Of a stretch of 29,078 bases of DNA, positions 7,201 through 29,078 are shown one piece after another. The translations under genes and the position numbers were made by a program. Origin of the DNA: a virus. Location: positions 1-29,078 of the IMG/VR virus record IMGVR_UViG_3300047460_000101; one strand, 5' to 3'. Positions within the stretch are counted from its first letter, which is position 1; every line of letters starts with the position of its first letter. The notes beneath the pieces are model-generated. The model was not told where the DNA came from. It saw only the letters and a program-made list of their open reading frames with translations, and searched no databases.

Positions 7201-10200
7201 AATAACCTCTGGTACTAGTGTCAAACTTAAGGAAGAATCTTTAATCTTCAAGTGTACTAAGGATCAGAATGTTATGACACATTCTTATCCTAGAGCATCT
7301 GGTAAGTATAGACCTGCTGCATATGCAGATGGTAACTGTTCTGATGTTCTAGCTACTGTTAACGCACTGATTGATATTACATGTAACTCCCTTAATGATG
7401 GTAACCTTAACAACTTACCACCTCTAAACAATGGTGAGTGGGATTGTGCAAACGTTCGTAGTTCTATCGAAGTTCTCTTTGATATTCTACAAGATGCAAT
7501 CGTTGGTGGTACACTTGCTGGTTTACCTCCTCTTAACACTGGAGACTTCACAATCAATAACGAAGCATCCAAGTGTTTCCGTGATGTTACTTACATCGTT
7601 GATGCTGTTGTTAATGACTTACGACTTGGTGGTAACATTAACAGTATCCAAGCTGGTGAGGCATACTATGTTGGTAACAACCTAGAGTATATTGACGGTG
7701 AGAAGACTGAAACTCTAGATGCATGGAACTATGTTGGAGAGATGGCAACTGCTGCCATGAGAAACTTCGATGTTCTCGCATTCAACTGTTCTACAACTAC
7801 TGGTTCTGCAATCGTTGATGTTAACGATACTCGTGGCATCATTATTGGTATGAGTGTCAAGGAATATGATGACACTGATCCAACTGCACCAGCATATGTC
7901 AATGGATTGCTACAAAGTGGAGCAACTCAACTAGTATCTAATATCCCTGCTGGTACATATGTCAAGAACATTGTAAGTAATACACAAATTGAACTTGGTG
8001 TTAATGGTTCTAGACTAACTGAAGGCAACACAGTCAACGCCTTACAGACTAGCACTACAACTGAACTATACTTTGTATATGAAAGTGGTATTTGGGCGGA
8101 TACATTACCCACAACTAAGATTGTCGGTCCTGCAGGAACTGGTGAAGAGGTCATTCAAGACACCACAGTTTCTTCAACAAATAGAGAGTGTTCTGGTACT
8201 GCTAATGCTATTGAAACATTAGTCGGTAACATCACTACTATTATTAATAGTGGTCTTGGCACAGTTACTAGACAAGAGCAGACAGTTAACACTGCACTTC
8301 TTGCATCTAGAGCTACAGTATTTACGATTGACGTTTCTGGTAGTGGTCCTTCTAACCCACATGACTTTGAAACTGGTACAGCAGTTAGATTAGTTCCACG
8401 TCCACGTTTCGATCAAGTAACTGGTAAGTATGTTGATGTTGATAAGCGTCTTGTTAGACTACCTAATGGTTTTGATACTAACAGAACATACTATGTCATT
8501 GCACCAGGTAGAGTAACACAACCAGAGAATTACGGTGGTACATCATTCTTCGATGGTAGTGATCAAACTAGATTGATGCTTGCAACCTCTAGAGAGAACG
8601 CAGCATCTGGTATTTACATTTATGCATCTGAAACTGATGCAATTGATAAGGATGTTGAGATCGATCTCTATCAGTTTGTCTTAGATGACAAGTATGATCT
8701 ACACAATTATACTGGTGTACTAAGTACATCAGTTAACGCTGGTATTCAAACAGATGTATCTCACATCTTTGATGCTCCTAATGCTGGTACTACACCTCAG
8801 AAAGCATTCATCAGAGCTGTTGAGGGTGGTGTTCTACCTCTAATCTCACAGACCTATGTTAACGATCCTCAGGTTGCAGTAACTGATTCACAGAACTCTG
8901 CTATCGGTAGAATCAATCCTAACATTGAGTTCTTCACTCGTTATCAGAACAATAAGACACTTACATTACACAAGACACATGCTGATGCAATTAACAATGT
9001 AAATCCAATTACATTTGCATCTGGTCAATCTGGTCTTGAGTTTAATGTTTATGCTAACAAGAGTCGTTCGCCAATGCGCTTCGATCCTGGTTTCACTGAT
9101 GCTACTGCAACTAATGGTAAGTGGTACATCCAGTGTAAGGATGAGGTAACTGGTAGTGGTGATCCTACAGATAATATCTTCTGGAGAATTTCTCAGTCTG
9201 ATTACGCTGATAGGCAGAGATCCACTGATATGTGGTATCAACGTCTAGAGGATAATCGTGACAAGGATGATAGAACATACAAATTACGTATGGTCATTCC
9301 TAAGTATCTTGAGAATGCAAGAGATCCTATTAATGGATTTGTTGTTAAGACAAGAACTGATGACACACGTAAGTTAGTACCTCAGAAGATTGTATTAAAA
9401 CCAGTTGTAGGTACAGTATATGGTGCTCGTTTTGAAAACCCAGTACAAGCTGGTGAATATATTGGATACGATTCTGCTGATTTCAATACTAATAGTCTTA
9501 ATTTAGATGCACAGTATGATCCATTTAAAAAGGATCAAACAGGTGCAGGCATTGAGTACAGAGCATTTGCAAGATTCACCTCTGGTATTCAAGCAACTAT
9601 TCAATCTGGTCGTTATGTAGAAGATGTTTTAGATCCTTCTATCAAGTATCTTGAGTTAAATCTATATGATCATGCTGTTGATACTAGAAACTTCCCTGGA
9701 TTAAGGAACGAGACATTTACTACAATTAAGATTACTGCTCCTCAAGGTGGTAACTTCGTAACTAGTAAGGTAGATAATACTTCTGGATCTCCTAATGCTA
9801 TTAGTTTTACTGGTAATTCTTCTGGTTTAGCTAACGTTCATGCATATTATACTGTAAATGGTGAACATTACTTAATCATCAAGAACGTTCGCAGTGGTGA
9901 TTTAGAGTACAGTGAATATGCCAATACAAGATTTACTCAAGGAACTGTCTTTGCTGACATGCTTGAGGATCAGGACATGGGCAAATCGCTTCCTCTAAAA
10001 ACTCAAATCAGAAAAAATAATCCCCAGTTTTTCTACAAGCAAAACGGCGCTAACGTTTATACTATCACACCTGGCGACAGAATTCAAGATGACGCTGGTG
10101 TTGAATACTATGTTGATAGTGTTGAAGATGCAGGAGTTATCGAAGATACATTCTATATCTTCGGATATGACACTCTACAAAAGAGAATTTCTGGACAGCA

Positions 10201-13200
10201 AGATGGTATCTACTATCTAACTGCTCTCCGTGGTAACGTTTCACCATTCCCAACTGGTGCTGGTGTAACTAACAACTTCAAGAAGTTTAAGTTCTCTCAA
10301 CCAGTCAGTAAGCTATATCCTCTTAACTATAGAAACGATCCTCTTTGGTTTAAGAAGTCTGGTACTTCACAAGAAGAAAAAGATCTATATGCTGCATTAA
10401 TTGACCCACCACAGGTATACTCTGCTGCTGACAACTATGTACATGGTCTTGTCACAGTTAACGACTTTAAGAACTCTACAACCAGAGAGATGGTTGCAGA
10501 CCTTACAGAACAACCTGCATTCTTGCTTAACACCTACACTGGTGTCAATGCAATTCAAGCACAAAGTGGTAATGCAACTTCTGGTTCTGAAGATCGCAGG
10601 ATTCCAATTTCTGGTGATAGCACAGTTCTATCTGATCAGAGATATTATGTTGAACTTAGACGACCATCTATCGCTCGTGCTGGTAACCATACGTTTGAAT
10701 ATCTTGGTTTTGGTCCAGGTAACTACTCAACTGGTCTACCAGCTAGACAGGAAGTTGTACTAACACCTGAAGAAGACTTCTACGCACAGTCTAAGAAACA
10801 AGATGGTGGTATCGTATTCTATACAGGTATTAACTCACAAGGTGATCTATACATTGGTAACAGAAGAATTAATGCTATCACTGGTGAAGAGACATTTATA
10901 GACACTGCTACATTAGCAGATGATGGAGATGAGGATGACACAATTGGTGGTCTAGTTACTACCTTCGATACACCTGTAACATTCAACCAGAATATTACAG
11001 TTGTTGGTGGTGACGGACAGCTAGTCAACACATTTGAATCACCAATTACTATCGCTGTTCAAGATTCTGATCTAACACAGGCAAGACATGCATTAATCAT
11101 TCGTTCTAACGTATCTTCTGTTGATCCTGTAACTCAGTTACAACAAGATGAAGGTCTAGACAGAACTGCATTTGCTCCTCCAACTGAAGGTGACATCAGA
11201 CTAAGCAAGAACAGAATTCGTTCTGCTATCTTCCAGTTCAATGCTAGAGGAAATGGTCAGAGTTACATGTTCCAGACTCACACCATTAGCGGTGTTGCAT
11301 CGAACATTACTCCTAATCAATCTCCATTAATTGCTTCTGGTGGTTCTAGAATTGATGCATCTCAATTTGTTACTTATGGTGGTGTTCTTGCTGCTCCTGG
11401 CGATGTTCTATTCAAAGGATCTGAGATTGGTAAGAATGGATCTATTGCATGGGTCTTATCTAACTACTTCTCTCAGATTGCAGATAATCAGATTGATAAC
11501 ATTGAGTTTGATGGTACTAACGTTGTTAAGATCTCCTTCAGAGACTTTAACAGTGGTGTTACTCTTTCTAACACTGATATTGGAATTACTTCTGCTTCTC
11601 AGATTAGAATCAAGAACTTCTACTATGATCCTAGATTGAATCTAACTTGGGTAGTATATGCTGCTAAACCAGGCGATGCATTCTCTCCAAGCAATAACTA
11701 CTGTCACTTCCAAGTTATTGATCAGATCCCACAGGCAACTGAACCATGGGAAAATATTATTGCTGGAACTTCAGCAGGTGCAGATCAACCAACTATTGAG
11801 TTCTCTAATGCTAACTTCAAGGAAGTTGGTGTTCTAGGTGCTGAAGCACTGAGAACTGAAACTGAGACTATTGGTGAGTACAAGCTAGGCATCAACACTG
11901 TTGCTCGTGCTCCACATAGTGCATATACAAATGCATGGGTTGATACTCTAACAACTGATCCTCGTGCAAACCTTGATGTTGTTGGTAACACATTCATTAG
12001 CGGTAGAATTACAGGTGACTTCTTAGATCACACTAACTTCGCTGATCGTGACAAGACAGCAATCGACAATGCACTGTTAGTTGGTGGTGATAGTTCTGCT
12101 CCTAATGATGAGGCAGTCTTACGTGTTGCTACTACAAATAGTGGTCGTGTTGGTATTAATGTAGATAACTCTCAACTAGACAGAGCTCTGGTTGTTGACG
12201 GCACATCTAGATTTACTGATGATGTTCGCTTTGAACATGATATTGAAGTCAATGGTGATGATGGTGTAATTGCTGAGATTAGAACTTCTCAGACAACTGG
12301 CACATTTAATCTAATTGATGATACCACATTTACTGGAACAGTCAACTTCGGTAGCGAAGTTACTTATCTCAACATGTTGAATGATAGTGTTGATGATCAA
12401 TTCATTAACATCGGTAGAGGATCTGCACATAGCAACATCTGGTTGGGTGCTACACCTGATAGCTCTGGTGTTGGTATCTCCAAGGTAGAAATTGGTGGTG
12501 CATATCTCAACTCTAATGAAGATCTATCTTACACCAAGATCAATACCAGAAACTTCAGAGTTGATGGTGATATGTGGCTCGGATTCCGTAGAGGAATTGG
12601 TGAGACTGTTGAACTTAAGTCTCAAGCATCACAAGTTGAATTCTTCTCTAACTCTGGTGGTCCTTCGATCCTTAACTTCGCACTAAATGCATCTGAGATT
12701 AACATCGCAGGTCAAGGTGGTAAGACTACGATTAACAACCAACTAGAGGTTGTTGCATCTGCTAAGTTCCTTGGTGATATGCATATGTGTGGTGGTGTTG
12801 CCTCCTTCGCATTTGAAGGTGGTAGAGCACAACTTGGCACAGATATTAGCGCACACGAAGATGGAATCTTAAGTGATACTCTCTTTAATAAGAATATTGA
12901 TATCCTCAACATATTAGTTGTAGGAACTACAGAGGAAGGATATAACCAAGTTGATACCGCAGGTAGTGGAACTTGGGGTGGTGCAGCTTATCAGCAGGCA
13001 GTAAACATCGGTGGTGTAATTGAACCAACAGATCTATCCGCTCTATCTGGTGATCAGTTCTATCTACCACTTAAGAATCAACCAGTCAAAGCAAATGGTG
13101 ATCCATACTTTGGAACTAATGATTATATCATTATTAATAGTGCTGTTGTTGGATCTGGTTCTTCTGCAACCAGTCACCCAGAAATTCTACAGATTGTAGA

Positions 13201-19479: not shown

Positions 19480-22400
19480 ATGGCATCATATAGGGATTCA
19501 TACGCTAATTACTTGTCTGATAAGGGTGGAAAACACACCCCTGTTGGTACGATTCTTCCTGTGTTTGTTGGTACTGATCAACAGACTGATGGTGAGAATC
19601 CAGAATATAGTTATCAAAGTCATCTATATTGTGATGGCAGTGAAGTAAATATCAGAGACTATCCAGAATTATATTCTATCATCAGAAATAGATATGGTGG
19701 CGCAGCTGCGGTAACTATTACTCAATCTGCAAATCCTGGTGGATTAAGAAGATCATATATTATTAACAATAAAGTATTCTTTCAGTTTTATAAGGATGCT
19801 ACTAATGATAAGGTAAACGTACAGATGCCTTATCCTTATAACTCTGCAATGAGATTTGAGTTATTGGGACAGTTTCCCACAGCTAATGGCATTTTTAATA
19901 CAACTACTTTTTATTCATTAAAAGAACCAACTGAAGATGTAAGTGGTCAGGCACAAACAGATGAGTTTGCATATGAAGTAGTAGTTCCTGATACTGTTGA
20001 TGTATCTACATTCCCAACATCACAATATACATGGTCATTTGTTACTCCATCTTCTGCATTACATCCACAAATTGTAATTCAAAAATCATTTTCTATTAGA
20101 GATTATCCTTATAATATTGGTACTTTCAAGTTACCAGATTATAGAAATAGGAAGATTTTAGGATTTGGTAATGTTAATGGTGCTGGTACAGCAACACCAC
20201 AAAATGCTATTAATAACTTTGTAGGACAAACTGGTGGACAGTGGTACATTGCTAAGAACACACTGATTGATAGTGGAGAATTTTTTAACGTTGGTGACGT
20301 AAAAACAACAGGATACAGTGATATTGTTGCTGACATTACTGCATACACTGTTGGTAGTGTTAAGTATAGAGTGGGTCCAATGGACGACTATACATTCCCA
20401 TTCCCACCTGAGCATAACCATAGAATCCTATCGGTAGAGGTTGATGAAACCAAACAAGCAGAGCTAGGACCATCTGAAGTAGATAAATTTGCTGTTAACT
20501 ATATTAATGGTAGAGCAAACATCAGTCTGTTTGAACCAGAAGGTGCTTCTGGATCTGCATTAGGACACTCTCATGGTATTATTGGAACAGCACTACCAAG
20601 TGCTGCCATGGCAACATATGGAAACGTTCCTGGAATTGGTGATAGAGATGCATCTTACAACTATTCTGTATCAGAATCTGCAGCTTTGAATCTATTGACA
20701 ATGACATATGATTCTGGTACTGGTTATATTACTATCAATACTGATGGAAATCATGGATTTGGTGTAGGTGATAACATTTCTGTTAGTGGAGCAACTCCAC
20801 TTACATATAGTGGCACCTTTACTGTTATTGCTCCTGGATTAGGTGGAGCGAATTTTAATGTATTACCTAGAACAGGAGAAATTCCTGGTATTAGTCCAGC
20901 TACACTTGGAGCAGGTGCAAATGTAAAATTAGCAAATGGATATTTTGTAGAGACTGAAACTACTCAAGCACCAAGAGTATATGTTGTTGATGGTAACACA
21001 TTAGTTGGTGGTAAGCAAGCAGAGTTTGAAATTCCAGGAAATGCTACTACTCTAAAGGAAGATATTATCACATCACCAGAAAGTAGAACTATTAGTGTTC
21101 CTTCACCATCATTAGGTGATGTTATTGGAATTGAAGCAGTAATGACCGCACCTGGTGGTGGCGGTGCTGATAGTGATAACGATGGTTCAGATGGTGGATC
21201 CGCTTCACTTACTCTTGACGTTGATGGTCAATTGTATACTATCACTGCATTTGGTGGTAAAGGTGGACAAGCTGGAAATAGTGGTGGTGCAGCTGGAGAT
21301 GGTGGAACATTATCAATCCCTGCTTCATTAGCAACAGATAGTAGATTTAATATTACAATTACAGAAGGTATTGATGGTGAACAAGGCGGTGGTGGTGGAT
21401 CTTCCACGTCTTTCACTCTTGGTGGTGGTGGAGGTCAAAGTCCACAAGCTTTCAACAAAGGTGGCAATGGTCAAGCAACTGGATTCCAAGCTACAATTAA
21501 TGAACCAGAACAAACATTTACTAGCAATGGTTCTTGGAGTGTCCCTGTTGCAGCTGCAGGAGAGCAAAGTAGAAGTATTAGCATTCAAGTAGGTGGCGGT
21601 GGTGGTGGTTCTGGCAACCCAAATGCTAACTCTGGATGTAGTGCATCATGGCCAGGTTGGCCAACATCAACTGGTGGCAAGACTGGTGCTAGTGGTGGTT
21701 ATGGTGGTAGAGGTGCAAGATTAATAGGATCATTACAACAGCAAGGAGGAACACTAAATTGGGAAATTGGTCAAGGTGGTGGAGCTGGATTTAACAATGT
21801 AGATGGTAACAATGGAACTGGTTCTGAAGCAGGTTCTGCTGGTGGAGGAAATGGTGCTGGTGGAACCCAAGGTGGATCTTCTGGTGTTGGTGCATGGGGT
21901 AACGGCGCAACTGGTGGCGGTGGCGGTGGTGTTACAGGTTTATTTTATGATGGTGTTGCTATTGCTGGAGCTGGCGGTGGAGGCGGCGGCGGTGGATCAG
22001 GTGGTGGTTTCAACGGTGGTGGTACTACTGATGGTTGCTATCCTGGTGGAGACAATCAAGCTTCTTCTCAAGGTCTAATCGCATCTAGTAGTGCTCTTGA
22101 CTTTACTGATGGTGCTAACGGATCTTCTGGTAGTTGTACCGCAGGATCTGGTGCAGGTGGTGGTTGTGGTTGTGGTGTCACTGGACAAGCATCGGGTGGT
22201 GTAGGTGGTCAGGCAGGTGTCGGTCACAATGGTAATGGTGGCGGTACAGGTGGTCGTCGTGGTGCTTCAGCATATAGAACTGATTTCTGGTCTGGTGCTG
22301 TAAGTTTGGATTCTGTAGGTGCTCTCCCATCATCAAATGGTTTTGTTAAAATTCAATTCAGTAGAACAACACTACAATATGATCCTGTTGGTGGTGCTGG

Positions 22401-23418
22401 TGGTCAAGGTGCAACAATTTCTATTGAAATTAATGACATTGTTGCTCCTGTTGTTGCAACATTACAAGCTGCTGGTAATGGTGGTGGACTAGCACAAGAT
22501 GGTGGTAATGGTCAAGTTTATGTGAGATATGCTGGTCAAGAAGCAGGTACTACACTACCAGGTGAAACTACAATTCCAACTGGTAAGTATTATGATGGAT
22601 CTGCAAATGGTACACCAAGTGGTGCTCCTAAAGATGGAAATATTTGGCAATCTTCTACTGATGATAATCTAAAACAAATTGGTTTTGGTATTGGTACTGG
22701 TAACAGTGCTGGATTCTCATCCGCAAATATTCCTTTTGCAGGACAAAATAAAATCACACAGTATATTAAATTTACTGGTGCTGCAACTGCAGCAAGTGGT
22801 GATAGACAATTAGTAGTAGGAACACTTGCATTATCAACTGTAAATGCAATAAGGTTTACTATTATTAGGGGTAATTCAGTTAATGGTGGTGAAACACCAG
22901 ATGAAGCGATAAATTTATACTATCAAAAACAAGGATCAACAAACACTACACTGTTCCAAGAAATCTTACTTGCTTCTAGTAGTGAATCTGGATGGCAAGC
23001 AATTGATATACCATTAGCAGAAGGTTCTCCCATCAGAGACGATGGCATGACACTTATATTATCACAAGATAGACCAAATGGTGCAAATGACAATGCTACA
23101 GCTGGTGCTGATAACTATGGTCTTGCTGCTATTACATTATTCTATGCTCCAACAACACAAAATACTTTTATATCTACTGGCGGCGCATCTCTACAAGGTA
23201 ACTTAGATGATGCTGGAGCTCCAATTAACTCGGATGTAGGTATCAGTCAAGTAAGACGTGAGGTTACTGCAAGAGATGCAGCCTTGACAGTTACGGATGG
23301 AACGTTTACAATGTCATCATCTACACCTATTGTTACTACAGCAACGGTTGTATCAGAAAGTGATATTCCGCTAATTACTAAGTATCATAGAGTAAAATAT
23401 TTGATCAAGGCAATCTAA
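19480..23418 (+). CDS. Collar protein with glycine-rich adhesin domain (1,312 residues)
   Basis: The N-terminus MASYRDSYANYLS resembles MASYNRIKAQ two genes upstream. A collar domain follows: P-V-G-T-I-L-P-V-F, LYCDGSEVNIRDYPELYSII-like text, and G-T-F-K-L-P-D-Y-R at about residue 210-220. His groups EHNH (near 312) and GHSH (near 365) recall the neighbours' metal sites. Residues 558-928 are extremely rich in Gly, with a segment near 680 (FTSNGSWSVP followed by GGGGGG) typical of glycine-rich phage and bacterial domains. In Salmonella phage S16, glycine-rich loops of gp38 form packed polyglycine-II helices at the fibre tip; a similar fold is inferred here. A smoother C-terminal region of about 300 residues ends in Y-H-R-V-K-Y-L-I-K-A-I. 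It is the best candidate in the window for a host-range determinant. Confidence 0.82.
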   Translation: MASYRDSYANYLSDKGGKHTPVGTILPVFVGTDQQTDGENPEYSYQSHLYCDGSEVNIRDYPELYSIIRNRYGGAAAVTITQSANPGGLRRSYIINNKVFFQFYKDATNDKVNVQMPYPYNSAMRFELLGQFPTANGIFNTTTFYSLKEPTEDVSGQAQTDEFAYEVVVPDTVDVSTFPTSQYTWSFVTPSSALHPQIVIQKSFSIRDYPYNIGTFKLPDYRNRKILGFGNVNGAGTATPQNAINNFVGQTGGQWYIAKNTLIDSGEFFNVGDVKTTGYSDIVADITAYTVGSVKYRVGPMDDYTFPFPPEHNHRILSVEVDETKQAELGPSEVDKFAVNYINGRANISLFEPEGASGSALGHSHGIIGTALPSAAMATYGNVPGIGDRDASYNYSVSESAALNLLTMTYDSGTGYITINTDGNHGFGVGDNISVSGATPLTYSGTFTVIAPGLGGANFNVLPRTGEIPGISPATLGAGANVKLANGYFVETETTQAPRVYVVDGNTLVGGKQAEFEIPGNATTLKEDIITSPESRTISVPSPSLGDVIGIEAVMTAPGGGGADSDNDGSDGGSASLTLDVDGQLYTITAFGGKGGQAGNSGGAAGDGGTLSIPASLATDSRFNITITEGIDGEQGGGGGSSTSFTLGGGGGQSPQAFNKGGNGQATGFQATINEPEQTFTSNGSWSVPVAAAGEQSRSISIQVGGGGGGSGNPNANSGCSASWPGWPTSTGGKTGASGGYGGRGARLIGSLQQQGGTLNWEIGQGGGAGFNNVDGNNGTGSEAGSAGGGNGAGGTQGGSSGVGAWGNGATGGGGGGVTGLFYDGVAIAGAGGGGGGGGSGGGFNGGGTTDGCYPGGDNQASSQGLIASSSALDFTDGANGSSGSCTAGSGAGGGCGCGVTGQASGGVGGQAGVGHNGNGGGTGGRRGASAYRTDFWSGAVSLDSVGALPSSNGFVKIQFSRTTLQYDPVGGAGGQGATISIEINDIVAPVVATLQAAGNGGGLAQDGGNGQVYVRYAGQEAGTTLPGETTIPTGKYYDGSANGTPSGAPKDGNIWQSSTDDNLKQIGFGIGTGNSAGFSSANIPFAGQNKITQYIKFTGAATAASGDRQLVVGTLALSTVNAIRFTIIRGNSVNGGETPDEAINLYYQKQGSTNTTLFQEILLASSSESGWQAIDIPLAEGSPIRDDGMTLILSQDRPNGANDNATAGADNYGLAAITLFYAPTTQNTFISTGGASLQGNLDDAGAPINSDVGISQVRREVTARDAALTVTDGTFTMSSSTPIVTTATVVSESDIPLITKYHRVKYLIKAI
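21151..22263 (+). other. Glycine-rich coding tract
   Basis: GGT and GGA codons dominate residues 558-928 of the 1,312-residue protein, in runs of three to six Gly separated by Ala, Ser, Asn or short loops. The GGTGGT-like DNA is locally repetitive and could favour recombination or slippage. A non-repetitive segment between about 21480 and 21580 splits it into two glycine blocks. Confidence 0.85.
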
Positions 23419-23422
23419 AATA

Positions 23423-24034
23423 ATGGCAGAACAATTTATATTTCCTCCAGAGAAACTGGTTGGTGATTTTCGTGACTTTATCGGTGTATGGGATGGTTTC
23501 ATGCCAAAAGAAATGTGTGATGATATCATTCGTAAATGTCTAGAGGCAAGACACAATAATGGTTGGATGAATGTAGACAATGGTTCTACACAGTTTCCAA
23601 GTGCTAAGTTAGGTCGTAGTGACTTTCAATACTTGTTTAATGAGCACGAGAGTCATTTATCTAATCAAGTAAGAGAATATCTAAAATGTTGTGTCTCAAG
23701 CTATGTCATTGAGTATGCTGCATTGAAACCAACAAAGATGCTTACAAATATTATTAAGTTTCAACTAACACCTCCTCGTGGTGGTTATCATGAATGGCAT
23801 TACGAAACATCATCTTATTTTGCTGCTAGTCGTGAGTTAGTATGGACAATCTATCTTAATGATATGCCTGATGGTGAAGCAGAAACAGAGTTTATCTATC
23901 AAAAACGTAGGATTCAACCGAAGAAAGGTAGGATTGTAATCTGGCCAGCAGGATTTACTCATACACACAGAGGAAATACTGTGTTCTCACAAGATAAATA
24001 CATCTTGACAGGATGGATTCATAAAACAGTATAG
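23423..24034 (+). CDS. 2-oxoglutarate/Fe(II)-dependent oxygenase
   Basis: 203 residues, four bases after the previous stop. The double-stranded beta-helix signature is visible: G-G-Y-H-E-W-H-Y-E around residues 120-128, giving H126-x-E128 as iron ligands, and F-T-H-T-H-R-G at 178-184 giving the distal His (H180 or H182). K192, in D-K-Y-I-L-T-G-W, sits where the 2-oxoglutarate carboxylate binder is expected. Enzymes of this type couple 2OG decarboxylation to hydroxylation or a related oxidation, and the family includes prolyl hydroxylases. Acidic Glu replaces the more usual Asp of HxD. I recall the THTHRG pattern from cyanophage oxygenases. Its place between tail genes suggests late expression and possibly a virion protein as substrate, which is inference. 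The substrate cannot be read from sequence. Confidence 0.85.
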   Translation: MAEQFIFPPEKLVGDFRDFIGVWDGFMPKEMCDDIIRKCLEARHNNGWMNVDNGSTQFPSAKLGRSDFQYLFNEHESHLSNQVREYLKCCVSSYVIEYAALKPTKMLTNIIKFQLTPPRGGYHEWHYETSSYFAASRELVWTIYLNDMPDGEAETEFIYQKRRIQPKKGRIVIWPAGFTHTHRGNTVFSQDKYILTGWIHKTV

Positions 24035-24036
24035 AC

Positions 24037-24858
24037 ATGGAAATCGCATCACCAGCAAAAACAGCATTATACTTGAATGCATTTGATAAGAACATTCAAG
24101 TAGACGGTGTTATCAAAACATTTGACGATGAATATTGGGTAGCAAACATTGTTCCTATCCTGTATCCTCTATGGGATTCTGATAAAGATAAGTTAGAAGT
24201 CTTTGTTAAGTACAAGGATGGTACTACAAAAATGAACAAGACCAAGTATCAACGTCAGCAAAAGACTGGTGTATACAAGTGGGTCTCTTATCAGTTTGAC
24301 TTATCACCTTTCCCCAGTGAAGTAGATACTCTATGTACTCGTCTCATGGAGAAGTATACAGAGTATAGAGTAGGACAAGAGAATGATCTAGAGAGATCAC
24401 TAGCAGGTCAGTTTGCTAAGTCTGCTATTCTTAACTGGAATAAGGTATCACTAATTAGAAACTTCTTACTTAGTGACAGTGATTGGACACAACTAGGTGA
24501 TGCACCACTCACTGATGATCAAAAAACAAATTGGAGAGCATATCGTGCGAAGCTAAGAGATATGCCAGACGAACAAAAAGAGATTGCTGCTAACATGGTT
24601 GTGTTCCCAGTAACACCATCTAAGCATGAAGCAATGGCAGATGGCAAGGAGTATCTATCTGATCAAAATGATCATTTTTATAGAATGAATCAGGTAGTAT
24701 ACAGTAAGTTTGCGGATAGAATTACTAATTATCTTGCAATTGCAATCTCTACAGCAGCAATCGATGACATGCCTGTTACCAAGGTATACAAACCAGCAAC
24801 AGGTGATGCTTCCCTTGATACTGTTCTAGAAATGATTGAAGACGGAGAGATCGGGTAA
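24037..24858 (+). CDS. Tail assembly chaperone-like protein
   Basis: 273 residues, starting two bases after the oxygenase stop. Residues 139-176 contain I-R-N-F-L-L-S-D-S-D-W-T-Q-L-G-D-A, K-T-N-W-R-A-Y-R and L-R-D-M-P, the pattern R-x-x-L-L-x-x-(S/T)-D-W then W-x-x-Y-R-x-x-L-R of phage tail assembly chaperone families (XkdW-like / Phage_tail_APC). Such proteins sit beside fibre genes and help fibre folding or attachment. The first 135 residues, beta-rich then helical, and the last 90 are not recognised, so the chaperone-like motif is embedded in a longer protein than usual. It overlaps the next gene by one base (TAATG). The motif call is good; the exact client fibre is unknown. Confidence 0.7.
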   Translation: MEIASPAKTALYLNAFDKNIQVDGVIKTFDDEYWVANIVPILYPLWDSDKDKLEVFVKYKDGTTKMNKTKYQRQQKTGVYKWVSYQFDLSPFPSEVDTLCTRLMEKYTEYRVGQENDLERSLAGQFAKSAILNWNKVSLIRNFLLSDSDWTQLGDAPLTDDQKTNWRAYRAKLRDMPDEQKEIAANMVVFPVTPSKHEAMADGKEYLSDQNDHFYRMNQVVYSKFADRITNYLAIAISTAAIDDMPVTKVYKPATGDASLDTVLEMIEDGEIG

Positions 24859-25220
24859 TGTTAATTTCATTTAATCCCAAAACAGAAGCAATGCTAGTAG
24901 CAGACTATGCTGCTGTAGCTAATAAGTGTGTTATTGTTGTTGATAATAGTAAGTATCACACACTGTCTACTACAAAGAAAGCAGAAGTCTTTACGTGGTA
25001 TGAGGATATCATGCCAGAAGCAGAGATCGATAGGATCTTTGAACTAAAGACAGTATACTATTATTTCCCCAATGAGCAGACTGCAGTGGACAGTTGTTAC
25101 GACTGGTTCCCACAACCACAGAATTGCCCTGATGCTGACCATCACATTCCAGCATATGTGATCAAACCTAATGGTGGCATCCCATACGTTAACGCAGATC
25201 CAACACCACCTGCAGGTTGA
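24858..25220 (+). CDS. Hypothetical protein at the end of the tail block
   Basis: 120 residues, with its ATG overlapping the upstream stop (TAATG), so translation is probably coupled. A compact start with alternating hydrophobics (CVIVVD) is followed by a helical middle (E-V-F-T-W-Y-E-D-I-M-P-E-A-E-I-D-R-I-F) and a Tyr/Cys/Pro-rich end (C-Y-D-W-F-P-Q-P-Q-N-C). The C-terminus is Pro-rich and probably flexible. No family is recognised. Its place after a chaperone-like gene suggests a virion-assembly or minor tail role, but nothing in the protein proves it. Its stop codon lies inside the -35 box of the promoter at 25217. Confidence 0.75.
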   Translation: MLISFNPKTEAMLVADYAAVANKCVIVVDNSKYHTLSTTKKAEVFTWYEDIMPEAEIDRIFELKTVYYYFPNEQTAVDSCYDWFPQPQNCPDADHHIPAYVIKPNGGIPYVNADPTPPAG

Positions 25221-25245
25221 CACGCCATTGATGGTGTGGTAGTAT
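25217..25245 (+). promoter_or_regulatory. Sigma70-like promoter TTGACA-N17-TGGTAGTAT
   Basis: A perfect TTGACA (25217-25222) is spaced 17 bases from TAGTAT (25240-25245), which matches TATAAT at four of six positions and carries an extended -10 TGG just before it. The -35 box covers the TGA stop of the preceding gene. The expected start near 25252 leaves about 15 bases before the ATG at 25267. It marks the switch from the late tail block to the small-gene block. Confidence 0.65.
25221..25238 (+). repeat. Inverted repeat in the promoter spacer
   Basis: CACGCCA and TGGTGTG flank TTGA, giving seven pairs with one G-T wobble. As RNA it would form a hairpin directly after the upstream stop codon, without a following T-run. 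As DNA it lies between the -35 and -10 boxes, where a repressor or activator could bind. Both roles are inferred. Confidence 0.55.
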
Positions 25246-25266
25246 GTCTTCATCCAGCATTAAACT

Positions 25267-25551
25267 ATGAAGGTTCCTAACAAACCAGAACTCACACATA
25301 TGCAGATCCAAGCTATTCTGAGGGAAAATTCAATCCCTGAGGATCAGATCAAATATATTGGTGATAAAGAATACACAACACATTATGCTGCTCATCCTGA
25401 ATACCATGGAGATATTATGCCATGGTATTTGATTGGTGGTGAGCATGAGGTGCCAGTTTGTGACATTGGATCAATTGATCAGGTAGACGAAGACGATTGT
25501 GTGCCTGAAGATGATGGTTGGGGTCCTGCTGGTCCTCCAACTGTAAATTAA
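25267..25551 (+). CDS. Hypothetical acidic protein (94 residues)
   Basis: The first gene after the promoter at 25217. The N-terminus (K-P-E-L-T-H-M-Q-I-Q-A-I-L-R-E-N) looks like a short helix, and the C-terminal third is very acidic (D-Q-V-D-E-D-D-C-V-P-E-D-D) and ends in Gly/Pro. His and Tyr residues cluster in the middle (TTHYAAHPEYHGD). No family is recognised. The coding call rests on length, sensible amino-acid content, and a start about 15 bases after the predicted transcription start. An acidic tail of this kind can mimic DNA or bind basic host proteins, but that is speculation. Confidence 0.7.
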   Translation: MKVPNKPELTHMQIQAILRENSIPEDQIKYIGDKEYTTHYAAHPEYHGDIMPWYLIGGEHEVPVCDIGSIDQVDEDDCVPEDDGWGPAGPPTVN

Positions 25552-25604
25552 TTTGTTTCGATTTCCCCTTAAAACACTGTAAACCACTAGAAACCGAGTA
25601 TAAT

Positions 25605-25793
25605 ATGGACTGGGACACTACTAAGGAAGAAAAACGCAAAGATTCATTCTTTATTTTTTATGAGAGTGTTCTAAAACCAGATCATAAGCTACGTGAAGCT
25701 GCACATGATCAGCAATGCTATCATGAACTGCTAGAATGGCGTGGAGAGATCATTGAATACTTAGACCGTCGTCGTAATGAGGAACTTTTATGA
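25605..25793 (+). CDS. Small helical hypothetical protein (62 residues)
   Basis: The ATG at 25605 (MDWDTTKEEKRKDS) is preferred over an in-frame ATG at 25518, because the earlier start would overlap the preceding gene and add an unconvincing Cys-rich stretch. The protein is strongly charged and probably all-helical (E-L-L-E-W-R-G-E-I-I-E-Y-L-D-R-R-R). Its stop overlaps the next start as ATGA, implying coupled translation. A TATAAT directly abuts the ATG but is too close to serve this start. The function is unknown. Confidence 0.72.
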   Translation: MDWDTTKEEKRKDSFFIFYESVLKPDHKLREAAHDQQCYHELLEWRGEIIEYLDRRRNEELL

Positions 25794-26032
25794 GCACACC
25801 TATTGTTGGTGCTGATACCACCTATGAAGAACATCGTAGGGATCGATTACAAGAATGTATCGAAGACTATCTTCAAGATGGTTTTGGAGACAATACTGAT
25901 CCACGATACGTATACGAAGAAATGCTGGTAGTTATTCAACAGCTAGCAGACTATCATGAAAAACATCGAGCACGTTACATAGAACTAAAAAGTTACATGC
26001 TTGGTTATAGTCCTCTTCCTGATAGATTTTGA
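25790..26032 (+). CDS. Small helical hypothetical protein (80 residues)
   Basis: Coupled to its neighbours by ATGA upstream and TGATG downstream. The charged helical sequence includes T-Y-E-E-H-R-R-D-R-L-Q-E-C-I-E-D-Y-L-Q-D-G-F-G-D and a second helix E-M-L-V-V-I-Q-Q-L-A-D-Y-H-E-K-H-R. There is a single Cys and no membrane segment. No family is recognised. Size, charge and packing match the small-protein cassettes common in early regions of T4-like cyanophages. Confidence 0.78.
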   Translation: MSTPIVGADTTYEEHRRDRLQECIEDYLQDGFGDNTDPRYVYEEMLVVIQQLADYHEKHRARYIELKSYMLGYSPLPDRF

Positions 26033-26292
26033 TGGACAAAAAAGAGAGAATCCTGCTTGCATTACAGGATATACATACTGTGACCAAACTGATTGATGGC
26101 ATTGACTATCACGGTTACATGATTAATAAACTTATCATGGTTGAGGTCGAACTAGAACGGCAACTTACTAATTTGATTCACAATGAACGAAGAGGAATTC
26201 AAAGCAGCACTTCAGAATATGCTGCAGATGCAAAATTCAGTACAGAACAACAACGATCAGAATTTTCAGATTCTGCAGGCACAAATCGATAG
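26032..26292 (+). CDS. Small hypothetical protein with tail overlapping the next gene
   Basis: 86 residues from the ATG at 26032 (TGATG overlap with the preceding stop); a TTG one codon earlier is possible but less likely. Residues 1-55 read as a natural helical protein (D-K-K-E-R-I-L-L-A-L-Q-D-I-H, then V-E-V-E-L-E-R-Q-L). From about residue 52 the frame runs 110 bases into the next gene and turns into low-complexity Ser/Thr/Gln-rich text, as expected of a secondary frame. The tail may be the result of a lost stop codon. The function is unknown. Confidence 0.65.
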   Translation: MDKKERILLALQDIHTVTKLIDGIDYHGYMINKLIMVEVELERQLTNLIHNERRGIQSSTSEYAADAKFSTEQQRSEFSDSAGTNR

Positions 26293-26392
26293 ACTGCAGA
26301 CACAACTGAATGAACTGAATGATCTCAAAGAGATGTTCAGATTACCAAAACCACAGAACAAAGATCGTAAGTTGTTTGATGAAAAAGAGTGA
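26183..26392 (+). CDS. Small coiled-coil protein (69 residues)
   Basis: M-N-E-E-E-F-K-A-A-L-Q-N-M-L-Q-M then Q-I-D-R-L-Q-T-Q-L-N-E-L-N-D-L-K shows heptad-like Leu/Ile spacing at residues about 28-53, so an oligomeric coiled coil is likely. The end is basic (K-P-Q-N-K-D-R-K). The text is rich in Gln and Asn. It overlaps the preceding frame by 110 bases and the following one by 14. Of the two frames in the upstream overlap this one looks more natural. No Shine-Dalgarno sequence is evident. The function is unknown. Confidence 0.72.
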   Translation: MNEEEFKAALQNMLQMQNSVQNNNDQNFQILQAQIDRLQTQLNELNDLKEMFRLPKPQNKDRKLFDEKE

Positions 26393-26690
26393 CTTTGCAT
26401 TACTTCAACCTGTACAATGGCGTGACATTACAGGTTACATTTCTTTCATCGATGATGCTTATCTAACGATTTGCTTCAGAGACATCCCACTGCCTGAGTC
26501 AGCAAACTCGCGGTGGGGTCGTCATTATGTTAACATTTTAGTATACCCTCCTTATTGGCATGAAATACGCTGTTGTATGGATGAGAACAAAAAAGAAGGG
26601 CACGTCCCGCCAGCAAGCGATCTTTTACAATTTGGACGATGCCGCAGCGTGGGAACAGCACATAAACAGAACGGTACACGCAAAAACTGA
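26379..26690 (+). CDS. Small hypothetical protein, 103 residues, overlapping downstream gene
   Basis: The start at 26379 (MKKSDFALLQPVQW) is preferred to the in-frame ATG at 26319, which would lie deep inside the previous gene. Residues 1-62 look like a compact beta protein (D-I-T-G-Y-I-S-F-I-D-D-A-Y-L-T-I-C-F, then Y-V-N-I-L-V-Y-P-P-Y-W). I recall similar sequences in cyanophages, unverified. The last 43 residues lie in the body of the next gene in another frame and look unconstrained, so the ancestral stop may have been near 26560. It overlaps the next frame by 131 bases. The function is unknown. Confidence 0.7.
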   Translation: MKKSDFALLQPVQWRDITGYISFIDDAYLTICFRDIPLPESANSRWGRHYVNILVYPPYWHEIRCCMDENKKEGHVPPASDLLQFGRCRSVGTAHKQNGTRKN

Positions 26691-26718
26691 CATCATTCCT
26701 ATTTTCAATGACAATTGA
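26560..26718 (+). CDS. Very small conserved-looking protein (52 residues)
   Basis: The ATG at 26560 opens M-K-Y-A-V-V-W-M-R-T-K-K-K-G-T-S, then A-I-F-Y-N-L-D-D-A-A-A-W-E-Q-H, and ends I-I-P-I-F-N-D-N at the TGA 26716-26718. This reads as a complete beta-alpha-beta mini-domain: a basic first strand, a helix with a Trp, and a last strand. That is far more natural than the frame overlapping it. It lies in the +1 frame of the upstream gene, and the next gene starts 11 bases before its stop. It is short enough to be missed by length-filtered gene callers. The function is unknown. Confidence 0.72.
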   Translation: MKYAVVWMRTKKKGTSRQQAIFYNLDDAAAWEQHINRTVHAKTDIIPIFNDN

Positions 26719-26923
26719 GCTAATGACTTACACCAAAGAACAATTGATTGATGCACTCGTTCATGAATGGGAGTATCTCTGCCATGATGATTATGATCCA
26801 GAAGATGATACACCAGAGGAGTATCGTTTGAAGATGGAGTTTCTCAATATTGAAGAACTGATTGAAGAAACATCAACTGGTGAAGGTTACACACTCGATG
26901 AGTTTATGGACAACCATGGGTGA
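26708..26923 (+). CDS. Small acidic hypothetical protein (71 residues)
   Basis: M-T-I-E-L-M-T-Y-T-K-E-Q-L-I-D-A-L-V-H-E-W-E-Y-L is followed by an acidic segment (D-D-Y-D-P-E-D-D-T-P-E-E-Y). The second Met, at 26723, is an alternative start with a similar helix. It overlaps the preceding gene by 11 bases. The protein is strongly acidic and predicted helical, with no Cys-rich or membrane parts except one Cys. I recall alike proteins in cyanophage early regions, unverified. It ends just before a C-rich intergenic stretch with the next promoter. The function is unknown. Confidence 0.78.
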   Translation: MTIELMTYTKEQLIDALVHEWEYLCHDDYDPEDDTPEEYRLKMEFLNIEELIEETSTGEGYTLDEFMDNHG

Positions 26924-26971
26924 CAGTTGAGCTAGTGTCCACTCGACCCTCCGCATGACCCCCGCACCCCT

Positions 26972-26996
26972 TATAATAAAGAGGTCATCAAGGGAG
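26972..26996 (+). promoter_or_regulatory. TATAAT -10 box with leader and ribosome site
   Basis: A perfect TATAAT (26972-26977) follows a C-rich stretch that has no good -35 box. AGGGAG (26991-26996) lies six bases before the ATG at 27003 and is the best Shine-Dalgarno sequence in the window. The leader shares the order TATAATAA ... CATCAAG ... GGA/GGGA ... CACC with the site at 27699. Confidence 0.6.
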
Positions 26997-27002
26997 CACC
27001 CA

Positions 27003-27281
27003 ATGCAACTCACTAACTCTGTCTGTATCGTTGACTTCTTCCCTGAAGCATTCATTGCTGAAGCATGTGATGTTCATGGTATTAAAACATGTGTTAAGCG
27101 TTTTGTCAAGCGTGTGACCTTCCCTTCCGATTATGGTAAGGACATGGTATCATGGTCAACTATTACAGCACTGACTTTCTCTCATGAGGTCAACTCACGT
27201 ATCGCTGGTGGTGCAGATGTTACTGCATTTCACACTGATAAGTGTCCTGACCGTTACTCTGGTTTCTCCTGTGTCTGCTGA
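27003..27281 (+). CDS. Hypothetical protein (92 residues)
   Basis: The start at 27003 is chosen because AGGGAG lies at the right distance; an in-frame ATG at 26955 would precede the promoter -10 box. The N-terminus is M-Q-L-T-N-S-V-C-I-V-D-F-F, and the middle is basic (C-V-K-R-F-V-K-R-V). Five Cys occur in 92 residues, three of them near the end (K-C-P-D and S-C-V-C). No zinc-finger spacing can be defined with confidence. The function is unknown. It is probably an early gene with its own promoter. Confidence 0.75.
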   Translation: MQLTNSVCIVDFFPEAFIAEACDVHGIKTCVKRFVKRVTFPSDYGKDMVSWSTITALTFSHEVNSRIAGGADVTAFHTDKCPDRYSGFSCVC

Positions 27282-27327
27282 GAGGCATCTAGGAGCGACT
27301 GCAACGCCCCTTTAACCTATTATTGCT

Positions 27328-27504
27328 ATGAATACCCGTTCTATGGAACTGACCGTTAATCAGGTCAATTTCATTATTGATATGATGTGGGATACAGATC
27401 CCAAAGTTAGCGAGAAACTTGCGAGGCAGAATCATGTAGATGATATTCAATTACACGATCAACTTCAACACCAACTTCACAACAATCCTAGAACAAATGA
27501 CTAG
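27328..27504 (+). CDS. Very small hypothetical protein (58 residues)
   Basis: ATG 27328 to TAG 27504. M-N-T-R-S-M-E-L-T-V-N-Q-V-N-F-I-I-D-M-M-W-D-T-D-P is followed by a His/Gln-rich helix (Q-L-H-D-Q-L-Q-H-Q-L-H). The Met at 27343 is an alternative start, and TATTAT at 27319-27324 is placed to favour a transcript beginning near the first ATG. The stop overlaps the next ATG by eight bases, a normal spacing in this cluster. Its body occupies the DNA upstream of the next gene, which rules out a longer start there. The function is unknown. Confidence 0.65.
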   Translation: MNTRSMELTVNQVNFIIDMMWDTDPKVSEKLARQNHVDDIQLHDQLQHQLHNNPRTND

Positions 27505-27691
27505 CTTCGACACCTTTATTGAAAAAATGGCATCACAACCTGATGTTATCGCCGCTGTTGCTAAGAGCAACCGAGAATGGGAGGAAGCAGCAGCAGCAGA
27601 ATTAGAAATCACTGTAGACGAACTCCTGTCTCAGTTGAACAGTCGTGTGACAAATGGCAAACTGCCACACCAGAGGATGCACGGTCACTGA
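27497..27691 (+). CDS. Small hypothetical protein (64 residues)
   Basis: The start at 27497 (MTSFDTFIEKMASQPDVIAA) is chosen over an ATG at 27440 because the preceding gene fills that DNA in another frame. The protein is mostly helical and acidic in the middle (E-W-E-E-A-A-A-A-E-L-E-I-T-V-D-E-L-L-S-Q-L) with a basic, His-rich tail. It resembles small phage proteins with a helix bundle, but no family is recognised. It ends eight bases before the next -10 box. Confidence 0.7.
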   Translation: MTSFDTFIEKMASQPDVIAAVAKSNREWEEAAAAELEITVDELLSQLNSRVTNGKLPHQRMHGH

Positions 27692-27698
27692 TTGACCC

Positions 27699-27720
27699 TA
27701 TAATAAGGACATCAAGAGGA
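27699..27720 (+). promoter_or_regulatory. TATAAT -10 box with conserved leader
   Basis: A perfect TATAAT (27699-27704) is followed by AAGGACATCAAG and a purine-rich AAGAGGA (27714-27720), which can act as ribosome site for the ATG at 27729. A TTGACC just upstream is only one base away and cannot be the -35 box. The sequence closely parallels the leaders at 26972 and 27961. Confidence 0.6.
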
Positions 27721-27728
27721 CACCACCC

Positions 27729-27944
27729 ATGCCTAACGCTTACGAGATCAGCATCTGCAACGAAGATCTGACCACTAGCATTTTCTATATCACTCGCCGT
27801 CCTACCAAGTCACTGCGCGGTCTCAACCGTCAGCACAACAATGTGGTGAATGATGTGGTTAATTCTATTCGTGAAGTGCGTGGATGGCGTCGTCTCACTG
27901 TTAAGCGTGTGCCACTTGCAGAAGTTGCACAAGGTAGCGTGTAA
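27729..27944 (+). CDS. Small basic hypothetical protein (71 residues)
   Basis: M-P-N-A-Y-E-I-S-I-C-N-E-D-L-T-T-S-I-F-Y-I-T-R-R is followed by a basic helix region (S-L-R-G-L-N-R-Q-H-N-N-V-V-N-D-V-V-N-S-I-R-E) and V-R-G-W-R-R-L-T-V-K-R-V. The net positive charge contrasts with its acidic neighbours and would suit nucleic-acid or host-protein binding, an inference only. It has its own promoter and leader. No family is recognised. Confidence 0.75.
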   Translation: MPNAYEISICNEDLTTSIFYITRRPTKSLRGLNRQHNNVVNDVVNSIREVRGWRRLTVKRVPLAEVAQGSV

Positions 27945-27957
27945 TCGCTTCCTACCT

Positions 27958-27966
27958 TGCTATACT
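27958..27966 (+). promoter_or_regulatory. Extended -10 promoter TGCTATACT
   Basis: TGC (27958-27960) directly before TATACT (27961-27966) makes an extended -10 element, which can work without a strong -35 box; none is seen. The leader AAGTACATCAA matches AAGGACATCAA of the preceding promoter. The ATG follows at 27990. Confidence 0.6.
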
Positions 27967-27989
27967 AAGTACATCAACACAAAAGACAC

Positions 27990-28442
27990 ATGACCACATC
28001 TTCCTTCGCTGACTTCGCTGCCACTGCTCAAGATAGAGCAGACGACGCGGCAAATGTATATCATTACACTGAGATTCTCTGTGAAGCACTCGTTCAAAAC
28101 TTCATTGAGTACAATACACACTCTATGAAGCGCAGCGCCCTCACTGCAGAAACAAAATCAGAAGCAGAATACTACACTAATCGCGCTAAGGAGATTGCTG
28201 AGAAACCTGACTACAGCTTCACCATTGAAACTGGACGTAAGTATCTCAAGGTCATCATGAATGATTGTACTGGTAGCAGTAGTGTCCATGCATTTGTTGA
28301 CAAAAAGACTGGTGAACTCTACAAACCAGCAGGATGGCGTGCTCCTGCAAAGCATGTCCGTGGTAATCTGCTAGATTCCGCTAGTAGGGAAGATGTTTTG
28401 AGTCGCTGCGACTGGGCGGGTGGGTATCTCTACTTGCGTTGA
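27990..28442 (+). CDS. Hypothetical protein (150 residues), phage-typical
   Basis: The largest product of the small-gene block. An Ala-rich helical N-terminus (F-A-A-T-A-Q-D-R-A-D-D-A-A) precedes a beta-rich C-terminal half: F-T-I-E-T-G-R-K-Y-L-K-V-I, S-V-H-A-F-V-D-K-K-T-G-E-L-Y-K-P-A-G-W-R and D-W-A-G-G-Y-L-Y-L-R at the end. The F-V-D-x-K-T-G-x-x-Y-K-P-A pattern is one I recall from many cyanophage and other phage hypothetical proteins, where it is conserved without known function. The start has no strong ribosome site (AAAAGACAC). Its stop codon lies inside the -35 box of the next promoter. Confidence 0.82.
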   Translation: MTTSSFADFAATAQDRADDAANVYHYTEILCEALVQNFIEYNTHSMKRSALTAETKSEAEYYTNRAKEIAEKPDYSFTIETGRKYLKVIMNDCTGSSSVHAFVDKKTGELYKPAGWRAPAKHVRGNLLDSASREDVLSRCDWAGGYLYLR

Positions 28443-28467
28443 CACCCAACCCATTATACATTATACT
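28439..28467 (+). promoter_or_regulatory. Sigma70 promoter TTGACA-N17-TATACT
   Basis: A perfect TTGACA (28439-28444) and TATACT (28462-28467, five of six matches) are separated by exactly 17 bases. This is the best sigma70-type promoter in the window. The -35 box covers the TGA stop of the upstream gene. Transcription should start near 28474, leaving about 20 bases before the ATG at 28494. Confidence 0.75.
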
Positions 28468-28493
28468 ACATAGGTCACCCTGCTTTTAATCTC

Positions 28494-28724
28494 ATGTCTT
28501 CTCCTAATTTCTATCTCGTTGCCGAAGGTAACGCTTATGCATTAGATGATGACGGCACTCCATATGGTGCTGCTGTATTCCAAGATGGTTCTGTCGATTG
28601 GGACAACTCCTTCGATCTAGAACCAGATGAGGATGATATTGAGTATGTTGCACACATGTGCCAACTCCTTGTACAAGCACAAGGATTAACTATTGAACAC
28701 AACAACGAGGTCTTTGTTAAATGA
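28494..28724 (+). CDS. Small acidic hypothetical protein (76 residues)
   Basis: The first gene behind the strong promoter at 28439. The N-terminal half looks like beta strands with hairpins (F-Y-L-V-A-E-G-N-A-Y-A-L-D-D-D-G-T-P-Y-G-A-A-V-F). An acidic linker (D-L-E-P-D-E-D-D-I-E) and a C-terminal helix (C-Q-L-L-V-Q-A-Q-G-L) follow. It overlaps the next gene as ATGA. No family is recognised. Confidence 0.75.
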   Translation: MSSPNFYLVAEGNAYALDDDGTPYGAAVFQDGSVDWDNSFDLEPDEDDIEYVAHMCQLLVQAQGLTIEHNNEVFVK

Positions 28725-28978
28725 GTAAACCAAACCCACTAGCTGAGTATATCACCACGCTAGTTGAACCATTCTCGAATCGTCACACACGAGGTGAGTA
28801 TACTATTTCAGTTGCTCCTCGTGCTGATCTGGATGATGAAGGTGTCGAACGGTATTGGCGAGCATTCTCTAAGTTTCCTAACGATTTTGCCTCAGCACTC
28901 AACCGTATGCTGCCTAAGGATGTAGAATTCATCCAGTACGATCACCTGTCAAACACACTTACTCTCATCAAAAAATGA
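28721..28978 (+). CDS. Small hypothetical protein (85 residues)
   Basis: Coupled by ATGA to the gene before and by ATGA to the gene after. It reads as a mixed alpha/beta protein: N-P-L-A-E-Y-I-T-T-L-V-E-P-F helix, G-E-Y-T-I-S-V-A-P-R strand, R-Y-W-R-A-F-S-K-F helix and a last strand H-L-S-N-T-L-T-L-I-K-K. There are no Cys, no membrane segment and no recognised family. Confidence 0.75.
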   Translation: MSKPNPLAEYITTLVEPFSNRHTRGEYTISVAPRADLDDEGVERYWRAFSKFPNDFASALNRMLPKDVEFIQYDHLSNTLTLIKK

Positions 28979-29078
28979 ACAACGAAGACGTACTCCGCAT
29001 TTCCCAGCAACGTGATGACATTTATGATTGGGTAGTAGAACGTTTCAGGTATTTCATGGAGAACGATGAAATTGACAA
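28975..29078 (+). CDS. 5' part of a hypothetical protein, cut by the window end
   Basis: The ATG at 28975 overlaps the preceding TGA. Thirty-four codons are visible without a stop: M-N-N-E-D-V-L-R-I-S-Q-Q-R-D-D-I-Y-D-W-V, then E-R-F-R-Y-F-M-E-N-D-E. The pattern is helical and charged like its neighbours. The rest lies beyond the window. Confidence 0.65.
   Translation, partial: MNNEDVLRISQQRDDIYDWVVERFRYFMENDEID

Follow-up and report, generated by a model that had tools for sequence, protein, structure and literature searches.

Features of the Locus

The window (the whole stretch of 29,078 bases analyzed here) has its best DNA matches among myoviruses of Synechococcus and Prochlorococcus, and is a fragment of a T4-like cyanomyovirus. 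Its tail-fiber open reading frame at 1211–15490 is a single gene of very large size, which matches other tail-fiber families in addition to the one given below; on its 3' side the tail block continues with more tail genes and with 2OG-oxygenase-like genes. A search for a PHROG match to the last gene on the tail side (24858–25220) returned none. Short genes take over from 25267 on; several of them have matches to PHROG families without an assigned function, and no obvious Shine–Dalgarno sequence precedes the ATG at 25267. The features referred to throughout are as follows.

617–688: tRNA-Asn (gtt), shortly before the late motif at 1164 and the tail-fiber open reading frame
1164–1171, + strand: TATAAATA, a T4-type late promoter motif, 47 nt before the giant tail-fiber open reading frame at 1211
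1211–15490, + strand: tail-fiber open reading frame, 4759 aa, short tail fiber family phrog_4527 (4628 bits)
24858–25220, + strand: last tail-side gene, conserved in cyanophages, C-terminus ...DPTPPG
25217–25222, + strand: -35 hexamer TTGACA, kept at the orthologous position in relatives
25218–25220, + strand: TGA stop of gene 24858–25220, embedded in the -35 hexamer
25221–25238, no strand assigned: inverted repeat CACGCCA-TTGA-TGGTGTG, 7 pairs, reaching from the last bases of the -35 as far as the TG of the extended -10
25228–25231, + strand: TTGA, forming the loop of the inverted repeat; relatives have a second TTGAC(A) at this offset (+11 from the -35)
25237–25245, + strand: extended -10, TG-G-TAGTAT (TG at 25237–25238, TAGTAT at 25240–25245)
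25252, + strand: putative transcription start, placed by promoter geometry about 7 nt downstream of TAGTAT
25267–25551, + strand: gene that opens the small-gene block, a member of the phrog_2020 family (PHROG match 6e-26)
27990–28442: DUF7717/phrog_818 protein, directly before the second promoter
28439–28467, + strand: second promoter, laid out like that at 25217–25245, with TTGACA across the TGA stop of 27990–28442, 17-bp spacer, TATACT

A Conserved Extended -10 Promoter at a Module Boundary

The elements of the original prediction, a TTGACA on a stop codon, an inverted repeat, and an extended -10, can all be read directly from the sequence at 25217–25245. The two hexamers are separated by a 17-bp spacer and agree with the consensus at 10 of 12 positions (TAGTAT on its own at 4 of 6), with the TG in addition. 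What characterizes a sigma-70 extended -10 promoter, namely a TTGACA-like hexamer, a TAnnnT, 16–18 bp between the two, and a TG one base before the -10, is found here as TTGACA-17-TAGTAT with TGG. It should be noted that promoter-like sites are at chance level in this part of the window, with 28 in positions 20000–29078 against 25.6 ± 5.6 in shuffled sequences; the predicted promoter is validated by its conservation, and not by its consensus score.

This conservation was observed directly in the relatives. Among the matches listed, 31 of 67 distinct relatives carry TTGACA-N13..15-TGnTAnnnT within 110 nt upstream of a phrog_2020-family gene; among control segments drawn from these loci, 24 of 2305 do. 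The phrog_2020 relatives in viral contigs were the best 80 of 330, and pattern matches further up that resembled the coding sequence of an upstream gene (TTGACTTyATwGArGG..., TTGACACATCAGTG...) were removed before the statistics. A site without promoter function, matching by chance in a compact AT-rich genome, would agree with the match count at chance level, but is very improbable in view of an orthologous conservation about 45-fold over the control segments.

Where it is present ahead of phrog_2020-family genes, the promoter in most cases lies 20–25 nt before the start codon, and the isolates with the promoter ahead of such a gene include S-WAM2, S-RSM4, S-CAM4, ACG-2014e, and ACG-2014j. About half of the relatives have no promoter immediately upstream; several of these have one further up, before an extra gene, and in S-H9-1 the same element sits one gene further upstream. 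In relatives of the upstream gene 24858–25220 (L028–L049) the downstream gene is swapped and the promoter retained, and it is likewise retained where the upstream gene differs (L011–L016); the promoter thus behaves like an element tied to the boundary between modules. The proposed position, where the tail module ends and the small genes begin, is borne out, and many relatives keep the promoter as well as its overlap with the stop. Counts of extended -10 TTGACA promoters in seven isolate genomes are 37 on the coding strand and 0 on the other strand; the S-RSM4 genome (FM207411.1) has six such sites, all on the coding strand and one of them at this locus.

The -35 Hexamer and the Upstream Stop Codon

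The overlap of the -35 hexamer with a stop codon is directly visible in the orthologous promoters as well: in 18 of 28 distinct ones, an open frame of 60 codons or more ends on the TGA of TTGACA. When all TTGACA hexamers of four isolate genomes and the window were considered, a TAnnnT at 16–18 bp was present for 14 of the 19 placed on a stop and for 86 of the 803 others (Fisher p = 5e-10), counts that rest on simple ORF calls and are not fully independent, because the isolates include close relatives and the pieces in which the genomes were read overlap slightly. The window itself has a second promoter of this kind at 28439–28467, with 11 of 12 consensus matches; 26 nt separate it from the gene at 28494. 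Placing TTGACA on the upstream stop is a recurrent layout in these phages and no special device; the -35 hexamer would come to lie over the stop because TTGACA contains TGA and such genomes are compact.

A Second TGAC in the Spacer

Comparison of the spacers revealed a recurrent element at the position of the window's loop. TGAC occurs at offset 12, often as a full TTGACA at offset 11, in 12 of 37 representative spacers, sites found only via the tandem pattern being left out of this count, whereas the maximum for any tetramer at any offset was 5 in 1000 shuffles. The distance of this second repeat to the -35 is constant in 17-bp and 18-bp spacers. An exact TTGACA-N5-TTGACA is present at this locus in six of seven isolate genomes and is the sole exact copy in five; ACG-2014j (W06) has a second one elsewhere, on the other strand.

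One explanation for this pattern is that a regulator or RNA polymerase recognizes a second TTGACA 11 bp, or one helical turn, further on, in which case the TTGA of the window would be a degenerate copy and its palindrome secondary. The excess over shuffles, the fixed distance to the -35 irrespective of spacer length, and the isolate genomes with the exact repeat all favor this. The relatives share ancestry, however, and the signal weakens at 75% clustering (7 of 23, shuffle maximum 4) and is no longer above shuffles at 70% clustering, with 3 of 16 in the comparison set of 17-bp and 18-bp spacers; the window, moreover, retains TTGA only. In viral contigs at large, the matches listed for a 10-bp control were as many as those for the 11-bp tandem and show no preference for 11 bp; the tandem TTGACA as a trait of viral promoters in general was rejected on this basis. 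We consider recognition of the second repeat unlikely; the loop TTGA may be a remnant of a second TTGACA. A dedicated single-site control element used by cyanophages of this group, in which TTGACA-N5-TTGACA would be bound in tandem by a regulator or the polymerase and would time the first small-gene block, with the window's lineage having remodeled it into a dyad, seems to us rather doubtful.

Tandem TTGACA-N5-TTGACA ahead of phrog_2020-family genes was also seen upstream of position 4001 in L051–L055 and in contigs L126, L136, L153, and L155, where it is followed by TGC-TA(TGG/GGG)T and often by AGCRRAGC. The -10 region of relatives with the tandem often reads GCTAnnnTAGC, which is a small dyad.

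The Inverted Repeat Is Specific to the Window's Lineage

One of the seven pairs of the inverted repeat is G/T, which counts as a mismatch in DNA and pairs as G-U in RNA. With wobble pairs allowed and loops of 3–8, the window contains 360 seven-pair hairpins, against 241.5 ± 19.6 in shuffles, so that such hairpins are commonplace in it; within its own spacer the repeat is uncommon under shuffling (p ~0.02, TCGA variant). Pairing in the window's register is complete (7 of 7) in two variants only, with TTGA or TCGA at the center and both from the window's lineage, and reaches 2–5 of 7 pairs in the 35 other variants with a 17-bp spacer. Its loss is directly observed in L010, a relative with a downstream protein 88% identical, which has TTGACACCTTCATAGCAGTGTGGTAGGAT at the site. 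Exact and mismatch searches found no second copy in the window, TTGACA with the exact palindrome occurs in only eight viral contigs, all at this site, and among 84,980 bacterial and archaeal genomes there were 63 exact matches, none in a cyanobacterium by title.

The original prediction regarded the palindrome as a possible operator that might recur elsewhere in the genome, and took its loss in close relatives as a refutation; such loss is what the comparison shows. On the evidence of the window, the viral contigs, the 84,980 genomes, and the pairing in register, the palindrome was rejected as a shared operator: it is limited to the window's lineage and occurs once in the window. As a general switch between transcription programs it probably does not serve, and it carries little general meaning. 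Within the window's lineage, 1 change in 24 positions in the palindrome region compared with 6 among the 28 positions that follow (Fisher p = 0.11) gives a weak hint of possible constraint on the palindrome.

The outer CAC...GTG is for the most part supplied by the promoter itself (TTGACAC...GTGTG), because of 62 sites 28 have a C after TTGACA and 37 a TG in front of the TGn. A broader motif, TTGACAC...GTGTGnTAGnATG, is present in many unrelated-looking viral contigs, and the CAC/GTG symmetry is therefore not peculiar to this site. The promoter elements give a short CAC...GTG symmetry, which the inverted repeat would extend in this one lineage.

A phage or host repressor could nevertheless bind the CACGCCA/TGGTGTG dyad and silence the small-gene promoter during part of the infection. 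The dyad lies where a repressor would block the polymerase and stands above spacer shuffles as noted; spacers overall are mildly enriched in inverted repeats (summed score 131 versus 116.7 ± 5.4, p = 0.013), and the change of TTGA to TCGA in sister phages leaves the center self-complementary. Against this stand the restricted distribution of the dyad and the absence of a cyanobacterium from its bacterial and archaeal matches, the other inverted repeats of the relatives, which differ in sequence and register, and the ten small-block proteins examined, in which no DNA-binding family was recognized. A palindromic operator is expected to be conserved in relatives or repeated in its regulon, and the dyad was found to be neither. 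We regard silencing by such a repressor as quite unlikely, and an operator in the window's lineage has an equally low probability. A regulator gene within the small block was also considered and rejected, Pfam giving DUF7717 only.

The same bases had further been proposed to terminate or stabilize the late RNA. Directly after the stop codon, a hairpin could indeed end late transcripts or protect their 3' ends, and the 18-mer taken by itself forms one of -8.1 kcal/mol (z = -3.2); in context, however, the fold is no better than in shuffles (z = 0.28), and the hairpin is lost in relatives of identical gene order. An intrinsic terminator has a G+C-rich stem followed by a U-tract, whereas here the stem is followed by GTAGTATG with no U-tract, no terminator was called at the site, and an Rfam search there gave no family match. 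A terminator or structured RNA was rejected on these grounds and is a highly improbable function of the repeat, although in the window's lineage a hairpin may stabilize the 3' end of the late RNA.

Proposed Transcription of the Locus

An exact TATAAATA was found on the + strand of the window at 1164 only, before the tail genes, and none was found on this strand at or near 25217, which makes a late-to-early boundary at 25217 plausible. The reading we favor, with a probability of about 0.8, is that 25217–25245 serves as an extended -10 promoter of the host type (sigma-70/SigA), which would start transcription near 25252 and drive the small-gene block from 25267. The late promoter at 1164 would serve the tail fiber genes (1211 to 25220); at 25217 this late unit would be succeeded by one that the unmodified RNA polymerase of the host transcribes. 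We infer the start, its timing, and the use of a host sigma factor. Counting against this reading are the 4 of 6 consensus bases of TAGTAT, a score at chance level, the absence of an obvious Shine–Dalgarno sequence ahead of the ATG, and the relatives with no promoter immediately upstream. The site is an ordinary, well-conserved promoter, economically placed, with a lineage-specific palindrome.

Comparison with Known Promoters

Operators in the spacer between -35 and -10 exist, for example in TetR/tetO, and the site resembles these in having a dyad between its boxes; it differs in that its dyad is not conserved, is present as a single copy, and comes without a candidate regulator. The promoters of the MerR type also have a dyad in the spacer, which is 19–20 bp long in their case, whereas the spacer in the window is 17 bp and falls outside this type. 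PhoB/OmpR-type boxes are 11-bp direct repeats, a period shared by the tandem TTGACA-N5-TTGACA of the relatives. From the cyanobacterial Pho box, CTTAN7CTTA (PMC3037559), this tandem repeat differs in sequence, and the window has a partial second repeat only.

With respect to the promoter classes of T4, the gp55-dependent late type (TATAAATA) is present in the window at 1164 and not at 25217, where the sequence thus falls outside this class. The middle type has a MotA box, TTGCTT-like near -30, and the window has TTGACA in this place and does not belong to this class either. Cyanomyoviruses are reported to be without motA, and their early genes are believed to be transcribed by the host polymerase in its unmodified state; their early and middle transcription has been described as unclear, with T4's own early and middle regulators missing (PMC2984593). 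Sigma-70-type early promoters have been reported for the T4-like cyanophages S-PM2 and Syn9 (reviewed in PMC2984593). The promoter described here is like these in its host-type TTGACA/TAnnnT boxes and in its position ahead of genes other than late tail genes, and unlike them in its TG extension and its place on the upstream stop. In S-RSM4, where sigma-70-like early motifs were not found according to the same review of 2010 (PMC2984593), we find the six extended -10 TTGACA sites described above. The promoter at 25217–25245 is therefore a good example of a promoter kind that is already known; as a conserved and precisely placed element, with a stop-codon layout that can be counted and a recurrent repeat in the spacer, it points to concrete candidate start sites in isolates such as S-CAM4, S-WAM2, and S-RSM4.
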